Assembly (NCBI RefSeq): GCF_026684035.1
Contig: NZ_CP113361.1
Location: 1,302,001-1,366,000 of the forward strand
Reading direction: 5' to 3'
Origin: Methanogenium organophilum
GTDB taxonomy: Archaea; Halobacteriota; Methanomicrobia; Methanomicrobiales; Methanomicrobiaceae
Length of the DNA stretch: 64,000 nt
Below the pieces are notes generated by a model that saw nothing but the letters and a program-made list of their open reading frames with translations, searched no databases and was not told where the DNA came from. The number at the start of each line of letters is the position of its first letter. The stretch's first letter is position 1. This document shows positions 10,722-17,665 of this stretch, in pieces. The position numbers and the translations under genes are program-made.

Positions 10722-10842
10722 ATTTGCGGCCATAGCAGCGGGGCAACACCCGGACCCATACCGAACCCGGAAGTTAAGCCCGTTCACGTAGTGTGTGGTA
10801 CTGAGTTGCGAGAGCGCTCGGGAAGCACACCACGCTGCAAAT
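10722..10842 (+). rRNA. 5S ribosomal RNA
   Basis: About 121 bases. The terminal stem is ATTTGCGGC (10722-10730) with GCTGCAAAT (10834-10842). Conserved internal sequences are CCATAGCAGC, ACCCGGACCCATACCGAACCC and GAAGTTAAGCCC. It closes the rRNA operon. Confidence 0.93.
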
Positions 10843-10862
10843 GCTCATACTAAATGAGGAAA

Positions 10863-10984
10863 TCTGTTCTGTATCTGTTATGCAAAGGAGCGTGAGCGCT
10901 TCGAAACGATTCTTTATGTGGTACATCTCTGCACTGTTCTGTGACATTCTGTTCTGTATACATCTGATGCAAAAGAGCGTGAGT
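10863..10984 (+). repeat. Imperfect direct repeat after 5S
   Basis: TCTGTTCTGTAT followed by TGCAAAGGAGCGTGAGCG (10863-10898) recurs as TCTGTTCTGTAT followed by TGCAAAAGAGCGTGAGTG (10949-10985), a period of about 86 bases; a shorter third copy (GAGCAAGAGCGTTCG) lies near 11055. The whole 10843-11353 interval (511 bases) has no gene I can support, although a 134-codon ORF spans the repeats and encodes the repeated peptides VMQRSVSASK and LMQKSVSVW. Possibly operon 3' trailer or decayed coding DNA. Confidence 0.45.
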
Positions 10985-11353
10985 GTATGGAATATTTATT
11001 TGCTGCAGGTGTTTTGTAAAAAAGGAGGTATAATAGGTAAGTACTATACTGATGAGCAAGAGCGTTCGTTGAAATGTTTTATCTGGCATATCTGCAGAGG
11101 CCTGGTGATATTTTCAATTCTATCTATATGCTCTTTAGTAATCTCTGAGATTCTGGCCTGCCCCGGTATTCAATATCGGTGGATGTTCTTGCAAGATATG
11201 CATAAATCCATGCCATTCACCTACTGCCGGGACGAACATAGATAATGTTTGTGAACCAGAAGAGAGATGCCGGGACTGGTCACGGTGCTCTCACCTGAGG
11301 GGGAATAAACCTGCATCACCGGTAGTCCCATTCGTCACTGGCAGGTGTTATCA

Positions 11354-12586
11354 ATGAAACTAATCTCATTTCTGGGCGAACAGGGGGAAGGGGCCGGGTT
11401 GTATACCTGCGGTGTATCATCTTGCGAGACACGGTTTGTGCAGGAGGCGATCTGCCGCCTGCTTGGGACAGTGGACAGTGCCGTCCTCTTTGCGACAGAA
11501 GGTGCCCGAAAGGCTACATGGGAGCCGGTTTCGCTGTCACTCACCCGCTGTGGTGTCACATCTGAAATGGTTGTCATCCCAAACGGGGAAACTGAAGACG
11601 AACTCTGGGAGATCTTCCGGGCAATTGAGACCAGTATTGATGACGGTGAGGATATCGTTTTTGATATCACCCACGGGTACCGCTCTCTCCTTCTGGTCGG
11701 TTTTCTATCGGCGGCATTTCTGCAGACAACGGGTAAGGCAGACATCTCACGTCTCTTCTATGGGCAGTACCGGGATGACGGCGAAGCGTCTCCGGTCCTG
11801 GACATGACACCCTTTCTCTCAATTCTTGATTGGACCACTAGTGTCCATGCCTTTCTGAGGTCGATGGATGCGTCCGGTATTAACCGGCTTGCAAACCGGA
11901 CAGCAAAGAAAGCCTATCTCTCCGGTCGGCCGGATGCACCGGAGAAACTCTCGCGATTCGCCGAGGCCCTGGACGGCTTTGCGGTGGCGACCCGGATGGC
12001 GCGCCCGGTCGAGGCCCTGAACCTTGCAGCAGGCATTGCCCGGGATATCGACGATGTGACAGGCGAAGTGGAGGTATTCACCCCGCCTCTTGTGGAGGTG
12101 CTTGATCATATCCATCAGGTAGGCGATCTCGGCATCCGAAAGCCGGAGAAGAGCGAAGGGCTGACTTGGGCCCATGTGGAGAAAGAACTTGCCCTCATCG
12201 GGTTTATGGTCGAACGGGGTCTCCTGCTTCAGGGGGTAACCTTCTCGCGTGAGTGGCTGGTGAACGTTATGCTCCTTGCCCGCTTTGGGGACGGTTATCC
12301 CGGCTGGCTGGACCCGGATACCCGATATGAAATGTCGCAGACTTTTGGGGCTGCCATCCTTAAACTGAAAGGTTCGACGTATCTTCCGACGTATTTTATT
12401 GACTGGTACATGGCACTTCCCTATGAAGATGAGGCGACCCGTCTTTGGGGGGAACTCTCCAGTCTCAGGAATGACTTCGCCCACTGTGGTATGCGGGAGT
12501 ATCCTCCGCGGACAATACGGATGAGTGAAAAAGCGGGGCAACTCTATAGGCACCTATGTGTTTTTTTTGGGATTGTGATGATGTGA
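11354..12586 (+). CDS. CARF-HEPN protein (Csx1/Csm6-like, DxTHG motif)
   Basis: A 410-aa protein of the Csx1-type CRISPR ancillary ribonucleases. The N-terminal CARF domain opens with KLISFLGEQG, and carries the diagnostic DxTHG motif as FDITHGYRS (D104, T106, H107, G108), where cyclic oligoadenylate would bind. The C-terminal helical HEPN domain carries the R-x4-H ribonuclease motif RNDFAH (R372, H377). In type III CRISPR immunity such proteins are activated by cyclic oligoadenylate and cut RNA nonspecifically. AGGTG at 11343-11347 supports the ATG at 11354 over an upstream in-frame GTG. There is no Cas10, Cas5/7-like gene, ring nuclease or CRISPR array in this window, so it stands alone downstream of the rRNA operon. 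Confidence 0.85.
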   Translation: MKLISFLGEQGEGAGLYTCGVSSCETRFVQEAICRLLGTVDSAVLFATEGARKATWEPVSLSLTRCGVTSEMVVIPNGETEDELWEIFRAIETSIDDGEDIVFDITHGYRSLLLVGFLSAAFLQTTGKADISRLFYGQYRDDGEASPVLDMTPFLSILDWTTSVHAFLRSMDASGINRLANRTAKKAYLSGRPDAPEKLSRFAEALDGFAVATRMARPVEALNLAAGIARDIDDVTGEVEVFTPPLVEVLDHIHQVGDLGIRKPEKSEGLTWAHVEKELALIGFMVERGLLLQGVTFSREWLVNVMLLARFGDGYPGWLDPDTRYEMSQTFGAAILKLKGSTYLPTYFIDWYMALPYEDEATRLWGELSSLRNDFAHCGMREYPPRTIRMSEKAGQLYRHLCVFFGIVMM

Positions 12587-13308: not shown

Positions 13309-14940
13309 ATGAATTCAATTCTGTATGTTGATGACGAAGAGGCGTTGCTGGATATCGCAAAAATCTTTCTGGAACGCACTGGCACATTCTCTGTGGATAC
13401 TGCCGGTTCTGCCTCTGAGGGGCTTGAGCTGATTCAGACTCAGGCTTACAGTGCAGTCGTTTCGGATTATGAGATGCCGGGGATGAACGGGATTGAATTT
13501 CTTCAGGAGGTACGCAATCACTTCCCTGACCTTCCCTTTATTATCTTTACCGGAAGGGGGCGCGAAGATGTAGTGATTGAGGCATTAAACAGCGGGGCCA
13601 GTTATTATATTCAGAAAGGCGGAGATCCTGTATCCCAGTTTGCCGAACTCACACACAAAATAAATCTCGCCGTTGATAAGCGAAAAACGGAGGGGCAGCT
13701 TTGGCTTGACGAACGACGTCTGGAGGCGCTTGTGGATTTTTACGAGAAGTCCGCCATGCCAGTTCATGATTTTATGGATTATGCAATTGAGGAGATTACC
13801 CGGATCACCGCGAGCCAGTATGGCTACATTGCCTTTGTGAAAGAGGAAGAAGATTTGCTTTCTATGTACAGCTGGTCACAACAGGCGATGAAGGAATGTC
13901 GTATAGCGGAGCATCAGAAAGATTATTCCGTGGCTGGGGCCGGAATCTGGGGCGATGCCGTTCGCAACCGGCAGGTAAGCATCATCAATGATTTTGAAAG
14001 CACAGTCCGCGGCCGGAATAAGCTTCCCGAAGGTCATGTACATTTGTCCCGCTATCTGGGCGTCCCCGTATTCGATAAGGAAAAGATCGTCCTCCTTGCA
14101 GGGGTTGCCAACAAAAAAACACCCTATGATGAGGCTGATGTCCGGCAGATCACTTTGCTCATGAATGGCCTGTGGGAGATTGTTACACGGAAAAAAACGG
14201 AAGATGAATTGAAGAGCGCCTATGCAGAGATGGAGGCCGCATATGAGGAACTGGTGGCAAGTCAGGACGAGCTCGTTAGTATGCATGAGGAATTGCAGTC
14301 GAGCCGGGATCGACTGGAGGTGCAGGTGAATTATCTCCTCAGTCCCTGTTCAGATATTCCGGAACCGGAACTGATTGATTTGATATCATCTGATGACCTT
14401 CAGCGTATTCAGGATGCCTTTGCAGAGGCCTGCAATGTTGCATCTATGATTACCGATACTGGGGGCAAGCCCATCACCCGACTGAGCAATGGGTGTGAGG
14501 TCTGCACCATCATCCGTAGTACAGAGAAGGGTGCAGGAAACTGTATGATTTCAGATCGGACATTGGGAAAAGAGGCGCATGAACTGATGAAACCAACCTA
14601 TGCAGCGTGTCGGGGTATTGGCTTCATTGATGCCAGTGCACCGATCTGTGTCGGTGGGAGGCATATCGCGAACTGGCTTATCGGCCAGAGCAATCCAATG
14701 GGGGTTACAAAAGAGCAGGTGATCCGGTATGCCCGGGAAATAGATGCAGATGAGAATGCTCTTGTTACTGCATTCGAACGTATGGAGACAATGTCTCTCG
14801 ACACATTCGAAAAGATCCTTCATCTGCTCTGGATTGTGGCAGGGCAGTTATCCACCCTTGCCTATACCAATGTGCGGCTTGCTAAGGATGCCCGGGAGGC
14901 ACATTTGGGTGAAGGGGAAAGCAAAAACGGTAAAGAATAA
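13309..14940 (+). CDS. Response regulator with REC, GAF and PocR domains
   Basis: 543 aa. REC domain at 1-120 with acidic pair D8-D9, phosphoacceptor D53 (VVSDYEMPG), T81 and K103. A GAF domain follows (about 135-295: ASQYGYIAFV..., DYSVAGAGIWGDAV, YLGVPVFD), then a coiled coil (about 295-335, repeated ELxxSxDEL), then a PocR sensory domain (about 350-520) with NGCEVCTIIRSTEKGAGNC and PTYAACRGIGFIDASAPICVGG cysteines. PocR domains sense small hydrocarbon-like ligands in other regulators. There is no DNA-binding or kinase domain, so it likely passes signals by protein contact. It stands alone in its transcription unit. Confidence 0.88.
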   Translation: MNSILYVDDEEALLDIAKIFLERTGTFSVDTAGSASEGLELIQTQAYSAVVSDYEMPGMNGIEFLQEVRNHFPDLPFIIFTGRGREDVVIEALNSGASYYIQKGGDPVSQFAELTHKINLAVDKRKTEGQLWLDERRLEALVDFYEKSAMPVHDFMDYAIEEITRITASQYGYIAFVKEEEDLLSMYSWSQQAMKECRIAEHQKDYSVAGAGIWGDAVRNRQVSIINDFESTVRGRNKLPEGHVHLSRYLGVPVFDKEKIVLLAGVANKKTPYDEADVRQITLLMNGLWEIVTRKKTEDELKSAYAEMEAAYEELVASQDELVSMHEELQSSRDRLEVQVNYLLSPCSDIPEPELIDLISSDDLQRIQDAFAEACNVASMITDTGGKPITRLSNGCEVCTIIRSTEKGAGNCMISDRTLGKEAHELMKPTYAACRGIGFIDASAPICVGGRHIANWLIGQSNPMGVTKEQVIRYAREIDADENALVTAFERMETMSLDTFEKILHLLWIVAGQLSTLAYTNVRLAKDAREAHLGEGESKNGKE

Positions 14941-15075: not shown

Positions 15076-15381
15076 CTATCCCAGCAGTGCAAGTGCTTCT
15101 TCGCCGGTCATTCCAACCCGGACGCCCTTTTCTTCTGCGATGGGATTTGCCTCTTTTATGATTCCCCGCATCAGGTCATCAGCGGTCGCAACCGATGTAT
15201 GGCCATCCGGAGGTCGGATGCGGGCTGCTGCGTAGCCAAAACCGGCAAGCGCCGTGACGTCAATTGCACCACAACCTACGAGACCGCTATCGTTTGCAGC
15301 AAAGACAATATTGACTGGTCCTGCAGGGATGATGGAACAGACAAATTCCTCTCCTCCGATGGTTATCTTCTCATCTGTCAT
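15076..15381 (-). CDS. DUF1805 (YunC-like) protein
   Basis: 101 aa from the ATG at 15381. The sequence VNIVFAANDSGLVGCGAID followed by FGYAAARIRP is typical of DUF1805 (YunC family), small proteins of unknown function common in methanogens and firmicutes. An in-frame GTG at 15399 is an alternative start; GGAGAGGTG lies near that GTG. It is the last gene of the minus-strand run after recQ and the 43-aa gene, and is convergent to the PocR regulator. Confidence 0.85.
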   Translation of the reverse strand: MTDEKITIGGEEFVCSIIPAGPVNIVFAANDSGLVGCGAIDVTALAGFGYAAARIRPPDGHTSVATADDLMRGIIKEANPIAEEKGVRVGMTGEEALALLG

Positions 15382-15443
15382 AGGCGTGAGTATATGCACC
15401 TCTCCGGTAAAAATGTGGTGTCCGGATGGGTGTTGTTTTTTCT

Positions 15444-15575
15444 TTATGGGTATGCCTTATCAATGAGATCAATGTGAATATCTCTCAGGATAACTGTGTG
15501 GTATGGGGGGTCTGACAGGATCCGGAATTTTGTTTTATGGTGACGCTCAGAGTCAGGGAGGAGTTCGTCTCCCAT
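15444..15575 (-). CDS. Small protein of 43 aa coupled to recQ
   Basis: An ATG overlaps the recQ stop (TGATG, sharing base 15575), the arrangement of translationally coupled genes. The product starts MGDELLPDSERHHK and ends IHIDLIDKAYP; it has normal amino-acid composition, with a short hydrophobic strand (YHTVILRDIHI). No family is recognised. It could be a chance ORF, but the overlap, codon use and position before DUF1805 favour a gene. Confidence 0.45.
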   Translation of the reverse strand: MGDELLPDSERHHKTKFRILSDPPYHTVILRDIHIDLIDKAYP

Positions 15576-17665
15576 CACTTCCCGTCTCTCTGCCGGTCCG
15601 CGGCACAGGTGAGGCGGATGTCAGTGTAGGAGAACCGATCACCGAGGACAGCCTTGAGCCGCCGGATGTCCCGTGTCCCCTCCCGTGCCGCAGCCTCCCG
15701 TATGGATGCCTGACGGTGCGGTGGCACAAGATCGTCAATCTCCACCTGCTCTCCGCCCTCAATTGCCTCCGTGAGATGGGCAGCGCAGATATCCGGGGTG
15801 AGGGAACGCTCCCGGGCAATCTCTGTTATCGTACACCCGGAACAGTAGAGGCGCAGAGTCTCTCGTGCTGAGTTGTCTGCTTTGCTATCTTCGTGCCGCA
15901 ATGTCGCCATAAAGGCCGGGCCGAACCGCTCGAGTTTGGCGGCACCGACCCCCTTGATGGAAAGAAATTCTGCATCCGTTGTTGGCCGTCTGGCAACCAT
16001 CTCCCGGATAGCCGCATCCGAGAAGATCATATATGGAGCAATCCCTTCGCGGTCTGCGATCTCCCGTCGGAGTGCTTTCAGCCGGAGGAACCCGGGATCT
16101 GCAGGCTCTTCCCGATGGTCGTCTTTTACCGCTTTCGTGCGGGTTAAATAGACCTCTTCGGTATCTGCTCCGGCGGCAAGGAGTTCCTCTCCTGCCTCTC
16201 CTACGGTGAGCACGGGATACGCGCCACTTTCCCGCCCGAGATATCCCATCCGTATGAGTTCCCGTATGAACGAACGCCATTCGTCCTTTGAGTATGCCTT
16301 CCCTACACCGTATCCGGGGGTATTCTTTTGTCCCAGTTCACGGATCTTTTTGGTATTTGCACCGCGAAGCAGGTCGATGAGATGATTTGAACCGCAGGGT
16401 ACCTCGAGGGCCTGCACACAGGTGACTGCCATGCGGGTCACATCCGTGCCGTCGAACCGCTCCCGCGGTGAACAACATATGTCACAGGAGCCGCATCCGC
16501 CGGCAGGGGGCTCTTCTCCGAAGTACTGTAGGATCATCGCCTGCCGACAGCGCTGCTCCTCACAGTAGGCAGCCATCTCCTCGAGTTTTGCATACGCTGA
16601 ACGCTGCCGGGCGGCAGATGATTCCTGCCGGATAAAAAATGCCTGCCGGTGGAGGTCACCTGCAGAATAGAAGAGAATGCAGTCTGCCGGGTCGCCGTCC
16701 CGTCCCGCCCTTCCCGTCTCCTGGTAGTAATGCTCAGGGGAACGGGGCAGGTCGTGATGAATCACAAACCGGACGTCCGGTTTATCAATCCCCATTCCGA
16801 AGGCGACGGTGGCAATGATCACCTGCACACGGTCACGGACAAATGCCTCCTGTGCCGCCTCCCGTTCCTGCCGGGTGAGTCCGGCGTGGTAGGGCAGAGC
16901 CCGGATGCCGGAGCGGCGGAGGGTGGCGGTGAGATCTTCGACCCCTTTGCGACTGAGGCAGTAGATAATCCCAGCCTGTCCCTGGTGTGCCCGGAGATAG
17001 GACAGAATTGCTCCTTTGGTATCCTTCTTTGATCTGACCTCATACCGGAGGTTTTTCCGGTAGAAACTCCCGGTCACCCGGCGCGGGCGGCGGAGATGGA
17101 GTTGTGCGATGATATCTTTTTGCACGGCAGGAGTCGCCGTCGCCGTCAGCGCCACTACCGGTGCGTGGGAAAACTCGCGAATGAGACGAGAGAGTTCGCG
17201 GTATTCCGGCCGGAATTCGTGTCCCCACTGTGAGATGCAGTGTGCCTCATCGACAGCGATGAGGGTGATGTGTGCCTTCTTCAAAAGAGAGAAGAATTCC
17301 TTCTTTACCGCCCGTTCGGGAGATACATAGAGCACCCGCACCTCCCCGTGGACAATGGCCGCTTCCGTCTCCCGTCTTTCGCGGTAGTCCTGTAATGATG
17401 TGATACATGCGGCAGACACACCGCATTCCCGGAGGGTGTCTACCTGATCCTTCATAAGGGCGATAAGGGGAGAGATGACGATTGCTGTCCCTTCCGAGAG
17501 TAATGCCGGTATCTGGTAACAAAGAGATTTTCCGCCCCCGGTTGCGATCACCCCGATGACATCCTCACCCTCTGCCAAGGCACGGATGATCTCCTCCTGG
17601 TATGGGTACAGGGAGTCATATCCGAAGTATTGCCTCAGAACCCGGGTGGCATTAGAGAATGGCAT
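15575..17665 (-). CDS. recQ: RecQ family ATP-dependent DNA helicase
   Basis: 696 aa. A 3'-5' DNA helicase for repair and recombination. Walker A is ATGGGKS near residue 42, motif II is DEAH, motif III ALTATAT, and motif VI QETGRAGRDG. After the helicase core come the zinc-binding cysteines (CRQ..., CGSCDICC), the RQC winged helix, an HRDC domain (about 540-605, FLSIKGVGAAKLERFG) and a C-terminal helix-turn-helix extension (CSGCTITEIARERSLTPDIC) as in YpbB/HTH_40. This bacterial-type domain set is unusual in archaea, which more often use Hel308-type enzymes, so transfer from bacteria is likely. It lies 4 kb from the addBA pair. Confidence 0.95.
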   Translation of the reverse strand: MPFSNATRVLRQYFGYDSLYPYQEEIIRALAEGEDVIGVIATGGGKSLCYQIPALLSEGTAIVISPLIALMKDQVDTLRECGVSAACITSLQDYRERRETEAAIVHGEVRVLYVSPERAVKKEFFSLLKKAHITLIAVDEAHCISQWGHEFRPEYRELSRLIREFSHAPVVALTATATPAVQKDIIAQLHLRRPRRVTGSFYRKNLRYEVRSKKDTKGAILSYLRAHQGQAGIIYCLSRKGVEDLTATLRRSGIRALPYHAGLTRQEREAAQEAFVRDRVQVIIATVAFGMGIDKPDVRFVIHHDLPRSPEHYYQETGRAGRDGDPADCILFYSAGDLHRQAFFIRQESSAARQRSAYAKLEEMAAYCEEQRCRQAMILQYFGEEPPAGGCGSCDICCSPRERFDGTDVTRMAVTCVQALEVPCGSNHLIDLLRGANTKKIRELGQKNTPGYGVGKAYSKDEWRSFIRELIRMGYLGRESGAYPVLTVGEAGEELLAAGADTEEVYLTRTKAVKDDHREEPADPGFLRLKALRREIADREGIAPYMIFSDAAIREMVARRPTTDAEFLSIKGVGAAKLERFGPAFMATLRHEDSKADNSARETLRLYCSGCTITEIARERSLTPDICAAHLTEAIEGGEQVEIDDLVPPHRQASIREAAAREGTRDIRRLKAVLGDRFSYTDIRLTCAADRQRDGK

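Follow-up and report, generated by a model that had tools for sequence, protein, structure and literature searches.

An orphan Csx1-type CARF-HEPN gene under purifying selection at a conserved site in Methanogenium

Methanogenium organophilum carries a solitary gene for a protein of the Csx1 family, in which an N-terminal CARF domain is followed by a C-terminal HEPN part, in a genome where the usual maker of the CARF ligand is absent. The gene is under purifying selection, and the residues of its ligand pocket and active site are intact. The reading that we consider most probable is that it encodes a latent, cA4-gated RNase, a former type III CRISPR-Cas effector retained alone without a resident synthase. 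The gene lies within the window, i.e., the whole stretch of 64,000 nucleotides that was analyzed, which corresponds to positions 1302001-1366000 of a genome assembled as one contig of 2,648,164 bases (99.88% complete). In the comparisons below, each species is represented by one genome (G numbers), and g1 is the genus Methanogenium.

Results

Protein family and predicted fold

The open reading frame begins with an ATG at 11354 and ends with the stop codon at 12584-12586; a GTG at 11345, located in the same open frame, is also a possible start. Both motifs on which an earlier sequence-only reading of this DNA had based its assignment, DITHG of the CARF domain and RNDFAH of the HEPN domain, were confirmed (Table 1). 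The protein scores above the cut-offs of the NCBIfam family TIGR02221 (83.1 bits, cut-off 76.25) and of the CRISPR_DxTHG model (29.1 bits, cut-off 21), and the PADLOC profile CARF2--CARF_HEPN matches its residues 1-403 with an E value of 6e-81. The CARF-HEPN assignment is far above chance; Pfam returned no family at E ≤ 1.

Table 1 Features of the CARF-HEPN gene and its conserved surroundings (window coordinates)
Feature	Coordinates	Strand	Basis or remark
CDS, orphan CARF-HEPN protein (Csx1 type, TIGR02221), 410 aa	11354..12586	+	ORF and family profile matches
CARF domain, about aa 1-155	11354..11818	+	Boundary from predicted model and structural alignments
CARF ligand motif D-I-T-H-G-Y-R, aa 104-110	11663..11683	+	H107 and R110 align with SyCsx1 H117 and R120
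C-terminal HEPN part, about aa 291-410	12224..12583	+	Boundary chosen by us from model helices
HEPN R-X4-H active-site motif R-N-D-F-A-H-C-G-M, aa 372-380	12467..12493	+	R372, H377
5S rRNA, upstream end of the conserved address	10722..10843	+	Same order in L034 and L036; context only
Response regulator-GAF-PocR protein, between the CARF-HEPN gene and recQ	13309..14940	+	Context
DUF1805 protein, conserved downstream neighbour	15076..15399	-	Context
RecQ-like helicase, downstream end of the address, dN/dS yardstick	15575..17665	-	Name is our reading

An AlphaFold2 model of the monomer, built from a six-row alignment, had a pLDDT of 83.5 and a pTM of 0.69. The top Foldseek matches of the model were Marinitoga Csx1-Crn2 (E = 6e-14) and Sulfolobus islandicus Csx1 (E = 1.6e-9), and no viral fold matched it at E ≤ 0.001. 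VIA-align paired 382 residues of the model with the cA4-bound Marinitoga Csx1-Crn2 (Z = 20.2, rmsd 6.7). Single-domain CARF chains align with residues 1 to about 154, and the matches restricted to CARF have an rmsd of 2.4-3.1 over about 120-150 residues; the large deviation over the whole chain is as may be expected with two domains. Judging from this model, the window protein appears to share the CARF-HEPN fold of the solved Csx1 structures.

Absence of a resident type III system

The sequence-only reading had described the gene as a CARF-HEPN ribonuclease without CRISPR partners in the window and had suggested that a distant type III system might recruit it, a complete type III locus elsewhere in the genome being what would turn it into an ordinary ancillary nuclease. 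The description turned out to hold beyond the window, for the entire genome, and the suggested recruitment is contradicted for this genome, where profile and repeat searches uncovered no such locus. There was no match to the RAMP family (PF03787) at E ≤ 1, with the same profile exceeding its cut-off in 4 of 14 control genomes, none to the Cas10 palm (PF22335) at E ≤ 0.001, none to Cas2 at E ≤ 0.01 and none to CARF5-HTH (Cas_NE0113) at E ≤ 0.1. Cas10 and RAMP, the genes by which an ancillary nuclease would be assigned to a resident type III system, are both missing. Similarly, the repeat of the type III systems of related genomes does not occur in this genome, and close direct repeats in the 64-kb window are limited to two pairs of two copies each, with no CRISPR array. 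A single match to TIGR02578 (Csm1) at contig position 787463 (22.9 bits, cut-off 170) was rejected as Cas10, since what matched is a common HD domain (PF01966, 31.7 bits) of a 345-aa protein.

Two further loci of the same genome contain cas1 sequences. The only whole cas1 gene (contig 1826765-1827697; L043:10765-11697, minus strand) stands alone, with HEAT-repeat, thymidylate-synthase-like and DUF308 genes among its neighbours, no direct repeats within 20 kb around it and no Cas2 genome-wide. The second match, at contig position 2429813, is a fragment containing a stop; a few kb from it, a 748-aa protein (L044:12671-14917, minus strand) has no Pfam match at E ≤ 0.001 and, by our reading, a nuclease-like C-terminal stretch.

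Descent and distribution

Relatives of the window protein were matched at 39 places in the order. Of these, 35 were included in the tree together with SyCsx1 of Synechocystis, a Thermus protein and four bacterial relatives (41 rows in total), whereas two pieces from G104, G205:C145 (which has the canonical residues) and a fragment from G216 were omitted. The four g1 proteins in the tree group with the type III-linked protein of G121 with support of 100/100, and this group joins the proteins of G115 and G118 with support of 100/99. The nearest relative, that of G121 (60% identity), is encoded beside Cas10, at a locus that also contains CARF5-HTH, cas1, cas2, RAMPs and two arrays. In G121, G118, G056 and G154, Cas10 and RAMP matches are found no more than about 10 kb from the gene, and in the first three genomes the gene is immediately preceded, in the same direction, by a gene of one family, which is CARF5-HTH by the G121 copy. 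The type III relatives also have one repeat family in common. By sequence comparison, the Methanogenium gene is placed as a descendant of a type III-linked Csx1, and its nesting among such proteins therefore argues that this Csx1 persisted after its type III system had been lost. Because the site of the gene is common to members of the genus, the loss of the type III system most simply predates the genus, several later losses being possible.

The gene is present in five of the seven Methanogenium genomes; Cas10 and RAMP were found in none of the seven, the completeness of which ranges from 59 to 99.9%, some being incomplete. Two of them, G000 (the M. organophilum genome) and G108, are single contigs with zero matches to Cas2, RAMP and Cas10. 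Cas2 is present in three others (G104, G106 and G109), and some Methanogenium species may accordingly hold another type of CRISPR-Cas. The repeat pattern of the type III relatives, allowing up to two mismatches, was encountered 37 times in G121, 119 times in G118, 47 times in G056, 36 times in G154 and 10 times in G115, but has no match in any of the seven genus genomes. The two genomes without the gene are G109, where the site was read directly, and G107, which is just 82% complete. The nearest named relatives are those from Methanogenium sp. MK-MG (81%) and Methanogenium cariaci JCM 10550 (76%, best segment).

Among 232 genomes of the order, relatives of the window protein were detected in 30, RAMP in 23 and the Cas10 palm in 21. 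Cas10 accompanies the relative in 10 of the 30 carriers, the other 20, incomplete genomes included, having no Cas10 match. When only carriers at least 90% complete are considered, 6 of 19 have Cas10 and 13 do not, with G115 being doubtful among the 13: its CARF gene lies beside cas1-like, cas2 and CARF5-HTH genes at the end of a contig, so that Cas10 may be cut off, and we did not accept it as a clear orphan.

Such patchiness of type III systems in the order makes it possible, though we hold this only tentatively, that the protein serves as a normal ancillary effector for a type III system that varies between strains and resides in some strains, plasmids or viruses, the nuclease being kept as the systems come and go. 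Consistently, Cas10 is enriched in near-complete carriers of the gene (6 of 19, against 8 of 116 near-complete non-carriers, by our subtraction). Nevertheless, neither Cas10 or RAMP nor the relatives' repeat is found in any genus genome, although with five carriers this absence is weak evidence, a true frequency of up to about 45% giving zero in 1 of 20 cases. The potential vehicles do not provide the missing link either: no relative was confirmed in viral contigs, in one single-protein scan for close relatives, which also led us to reject a phage origin of the gene, and every one of the 20 matching plasmid records is from another organism and below 60% identity.

Ligand pocket and active site

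The consequences of changes in the pocket of this family are known from cA4-dependent RNase assays of SyCsx1, in which D114A and G118A were weaker, H117D and R120A barely active and H388A inactive (PMC9676260). These five residues, D114, H117, G118, R120 and H388, align with D104, H107, G108, R110 and H377 of the window protein, and all are retained in the five genus carriers. This includes M. cariaci, in which the D, T, H, G and R of CARF and the R and H of HEPN are recovered when the two frames of its gene are read separately. The CARF H and R are both present in 14 of 14 type III-linked rows (among them two from G202, assigned by orthology on a 3.2 kb contig, one from G115, assigned by its cas neighbours, and the bacterial SyCsx1 and Thermus proteins) and in each of the four g1 rows; R and H of HEPN are present in 36 of the 36 rows tallied. 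Furthermore, S5, F6, G8, Y17, T26, Q30, D104, H107 and R110, which are invariant in 13 linked rows, are identical in the four g1 rows.

Some conserved positions have changed. P113, found in 13 of 13 linked rows three residues past the CARF motif, is replaced by L in all four g1 rows, which also have Q278E and E328S at positions invariant or nearly so among the linked rows; further changes at such positions are L151M in G000 and T48P, A51D, G137S and G312R in G108. As an alternative to recruitment by a type III system, the sequence-only reading had considered that the protein might answer a different cyclic nucleotide signal. With the CARF positions that were probed for cA4 in SyCsx1 all conserved, there is, at the level of sequence, little sign of a new ligand for the window protein, P113L being the exception. 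A separate case is G129, a carrier without Cas10 that falls outside both the orphan and the linked groups and has Q at the position of H107, with R110 and the HEPN residues kept.

A second orphan clade in the sister family

What a change of ligand could look like is suggested by a second clade of orphans, comprising 18 rows from genera g35, g36 and g38 of the sister family (L017-L019, L021, L023-L033, L084, L086 and L087; support 81/85, with long branches and odd composition flagged for part of the clade). Neither RAMP nor Cas10 was found on the contigs of these rows, except in G197, where the matches are over 550 kb away. All 18 proteins have the HEPN R and H, and none has the CARF H and R pair: R is changed to G in 7 of 7 g38 proteins; H to A or S, along with R to H, in 6 of 6 proteins of one g36 form; H to D, the change that nearly abolished the activity of SyCsx1, in 4 of 4 proteins of the other g36 form; and H to N in G196. 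The window gene, as far as its sequence indicates, has undergone no such change. Removal of the pairs with saturated dS left 7 of 15 whole-gene pairs for one g36 form, 5 of 6 for the other and 21 of 21 for g38. For the two g36 forms, the median dN/dS values are 0.077 and 0.092, each from few unsaturated pairs; for g38 the median is 0.30, so the gene may be less constrained there. In the compared g35, g36 and g38 loci (L045-L052), a CofC-like gene, assigned to its family by the G213 copy, is located within about 6.5 kb of the CARF gene, which suggests one inherited locus. Five of the genomes with members of this clade (G197, G199, G204, G205 and G208) also have Cas10, and there an inability to respond to cA4 would prevent crosstalk between two pathways.

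Besides the members of this clade, three g36 loci (L020, L022 and L016) contain two CARF-HEPN genes positioned back to back on opposite strands; in G197 and G199 these are near RAMP matches, and one of the proteins has HAYR in place of HGFR.

The sister-family orphans, which swapped the cA4 residues yet kept HEPN, lend some appeal to the thought that the window protein, too, now answers a ligand that does not come from Cas10, for example, RNA ends. By analogy, RtcR would set a precedent, as its CARF domain binds tRNA 5′ halves with a 2′,3′-cyclic phosphate (PMC7790460), and long-term selection without a resident Cas10 as well as P113L in all four g1 rows would fit. We nonetheless regard this explanation as doubtful, given that a mark of the switch would be expected at the residues tested in SyCsx1, as in the sister-family clade, and these are unchanged.

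Genomic site and selection

As the sequence-only reading had noted, the gene follows an rRNA operon: the SSU-tRNA-LSU-5S array is directly upstream, with a gap of 0.5 kb. In G105 and G108, the CARF gene is likewise flanked by this rRNA operon on one side and by the DUF1805-recQ pair on the other, and the contig of G104 begins just past the 5S gene and spans the CARF gene through recQ; that of G106 ends too early to show recQ. In G109, which has no CARF gene, ruvCAB-like, ABC-transporter and transposase genes, by our reading of the ORFs, precede the block of response regulator, DUF1805 and recQ genes. The response regulator-GAF-PocR gene is also found in G108 (two copies) and G109 and is absent from the corresponding interval of G105. 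Apart from this gene and DUF1805, we saw no conserved partner in the 5S-recQ interval across the genus.

At the DNA level, the gene aligns near full length at 75-80%, and the DNA immediately upstream is unalignable. A gene on the opposite strand, with a sensor domain named from the G105 copy, separates 5S from the CARF gene in G105 and G108, and another upstream opposite-strand gene is common to G104 and G106. Co-transcription with rRNA is unlikely because opposite-strand genes intervene in G105 and G108, and the rRNA operon marks a stable location of the gene, not a functional connection. A scan for sigma-70 promoters and terminators, which does not cover archaeal promoters, yielded fewer sites than in shuffled sequences. 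Just after the 5S gene are two copies of a 26-nt direct repeat (window 10880-10905 and 10967-10992), 87 bases apart, the 17-base core of which occurs once more at L034:1387, after another rRNA operon.

We estimated dN/dS by the Nei-Gojobori method with the Jukes-Cantor correction, using our own script. The ratio is 0.108-0.143 for the window gene (six pairs, four species), 0.108-0.134 for recQ (three pairs), 0.118-0.230 for DUF1805 (three pairs) and 0.122 for the response regulator gene (one pair), values that are rough given dS of 0.74-1.35 among the genus pairs. The medians for the parts of the window gene are 0.125 for CARF, 0.087 for the middle and 0.151 for HEPN. Purifying selection on the gene is as strict as that on the neighbouring recQ, and there is no sign of decay. 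In the M. cariaci draft (G104), the gene is split between two frames (L055:2540-3720, contig stretch of L037); since recQ on the same contig likewise contains stops, the break probably reflects poor draft sequence.

It is thus very improbable that the gene is a dead relic of a lost type III locus drifting to loss, as the orphan VC1899 was read by its authors: the orphan position, the lack of a conserved partner and the two genus genomes without the gene would agree with such a fate, but dN/dS is as low as that of recQ across species with dS near 1, the catalytic and tested ligand residues are kept, and the M. cariaci frame break looks like a sequence fault.

Candidate signal makers

Profile searches for mCpol and CD-NTase revealed no synthase common to the genus. 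No mCpol was found over the cut-off in 32 genomes, nor in the 14 controls, which thus provided no positive control; weaker matches were present in 5 of the 32 genomes, none of them in g1. CD-NTase exceeded the cut-off in 2 of the 32 genomes, G000 and G203. That of G000 (SMODS 29.1 bits, cut-off 26.5) is overlapped upstream by the gene for a SLATT_4 membrane protein, the two forming a small CBASS-like pair (contig 2251968-2253481; L081:6968-8481), and no SMODS match in the other six genus genomes exceeds the cut-off. Weak SMODS matches occur in most genomes, the majority in frames of about 460 aa; to us they resemble CCA-adding enzymes. Even with this pair in the genome, it is hardly credible that the CARF-HEPN protein is an effector borrowed by the CD-NTase, whose cyclic oligonucleotide it would read: the only SMODS match over the cut-off is about 0.94 Mb away from the window gene and comes with its own SLATT effector, and the nuclease is present in five of seven genus genomes, whereas SMODS is below the cut-off in all but one.

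Discussion

Proposed function

Taken together, the data are best explained by a Csx1-type CARF-HEPN ribonuclease whose ancestor was an ancillary nuclease at a type III CRISPR-Cas locus. The type III genes and the array would have disappeared from the Methanogenium lineage, with the nuclease kept alone at the fixed site behind the rRNA operon. The protein is predicted to form a homodimer, the CARF pocket of which would bind a cA4-like cyclic oligoadenylate; binding would switch on the putative RNase activity of the HEPN R-X4-H site, and the resulting RNA cleavage would presumably stop growth once the signal appears. The ligand could be supplied by type III systems arriving with plasmids, viruses or other strains, or by an unrecognised synthase. 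Several observations sit uneasily with a latent cA4-gated RNase: no source of the ligand is visible; the cA4 pocket has, puzzlingly, stayed intact with no cA4 maker present; two of the seven genus genomes have no copy; and P113L and other changes affect conserved positions.

Along the same lines, but unlikely in our estimation, the genus might possess a cyclic-oligoadenylate alarm independent of Cas10, with the cA4-like signal of an unrecognised synthase being read by Csx1 and the sister-family orphans being rewired to another ligand. If so, CARF-HEPN proteins would be stand-alone sensors in stress or defence, and not just CRISPR accessories. In any event, an intact cA4-type RNase across most of a genus without a recognised cA4 maker raises the question of what else triggers CARF effectors. 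The two orphan clades offer a test pair in this respect, one being predicted to respond to cA4 and the other to be blind to it, with the RNase motif intact in both.

Comparison with known systems

Orphan CARF genes are not new. Unlinked genes are known in each CARF family, and a 2014 survey counted 9 of 145 CARF genomes with neither cas1 nor cas10 (PMC4012209), a figure not comparable with our 20 of 30, which disregards cas1 (an isolated cas1 is present in the M. organophilum genome itself) and also counts incomplete genomes. PfCsx15 is another studied orphan (PMC13148439). Among the effectors of archaeal type III loci, Csx1 predominates, and cA4 is assumed to be its activator (PMC11229360). 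We found no prior report on the Methanogenium orphan in a search of titles and abstract openings within one literature collection.

One of the closest known counterparts is SyCsx1, the ancillary nuclease of a type III-D system of Synechocystis PCC 6803, which belongs to the same family (annotated as csx2, TIGR02221), is 28% identical to the window protein over 98% of the query and has in common with it the D-x-T-H-G-x-R and R-N-x-x-A-H-C-G-M motifs. We infer that the Synechocystis gene matched here is slr7061 from its place beside the III-D genes (PMC9676260). SyCsx1 is encoded next to type III genes and was shown to be a cA4-activated RNase (PMC9676260), whereas no type III locus accompanies the window protein, a predicted RNase. 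The same difference in setting separates it from the Csx1 of G121, a genome of another genus in the same taxonomic family: the tested pocket and HEPN residues of the two are alike, but the G121 gene is linked to Cas10, RAMPs, cas1, cas2, CARF5-HTH and arrays, and the Methanogenium copies are alone. In terms of fold, the solved structure closest to the model is Marinitoga Csx1-Crn2, one entry of which has cA4 bound; its identity to the window protein is 17-18%, and it carries an extra ring-nuclease domain past the aligned part.

A parallel in genomic setting is VC1899, an orphan CARF nuclease without a type III system that has been described as "cast adrift" (PMC7969007), as the window protein appears to be. 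However, VC1899 is a member of the DUF1887/Can2 family with a site described as unfit for cA4 (PMC7969007). The loss of cA4-binding residues that marks degeneration of the VC1899 type is not seen in the window protein, which has a HEPN effector and intact tested residues. The Methanogenium gene is a new orphan of a known protein family.
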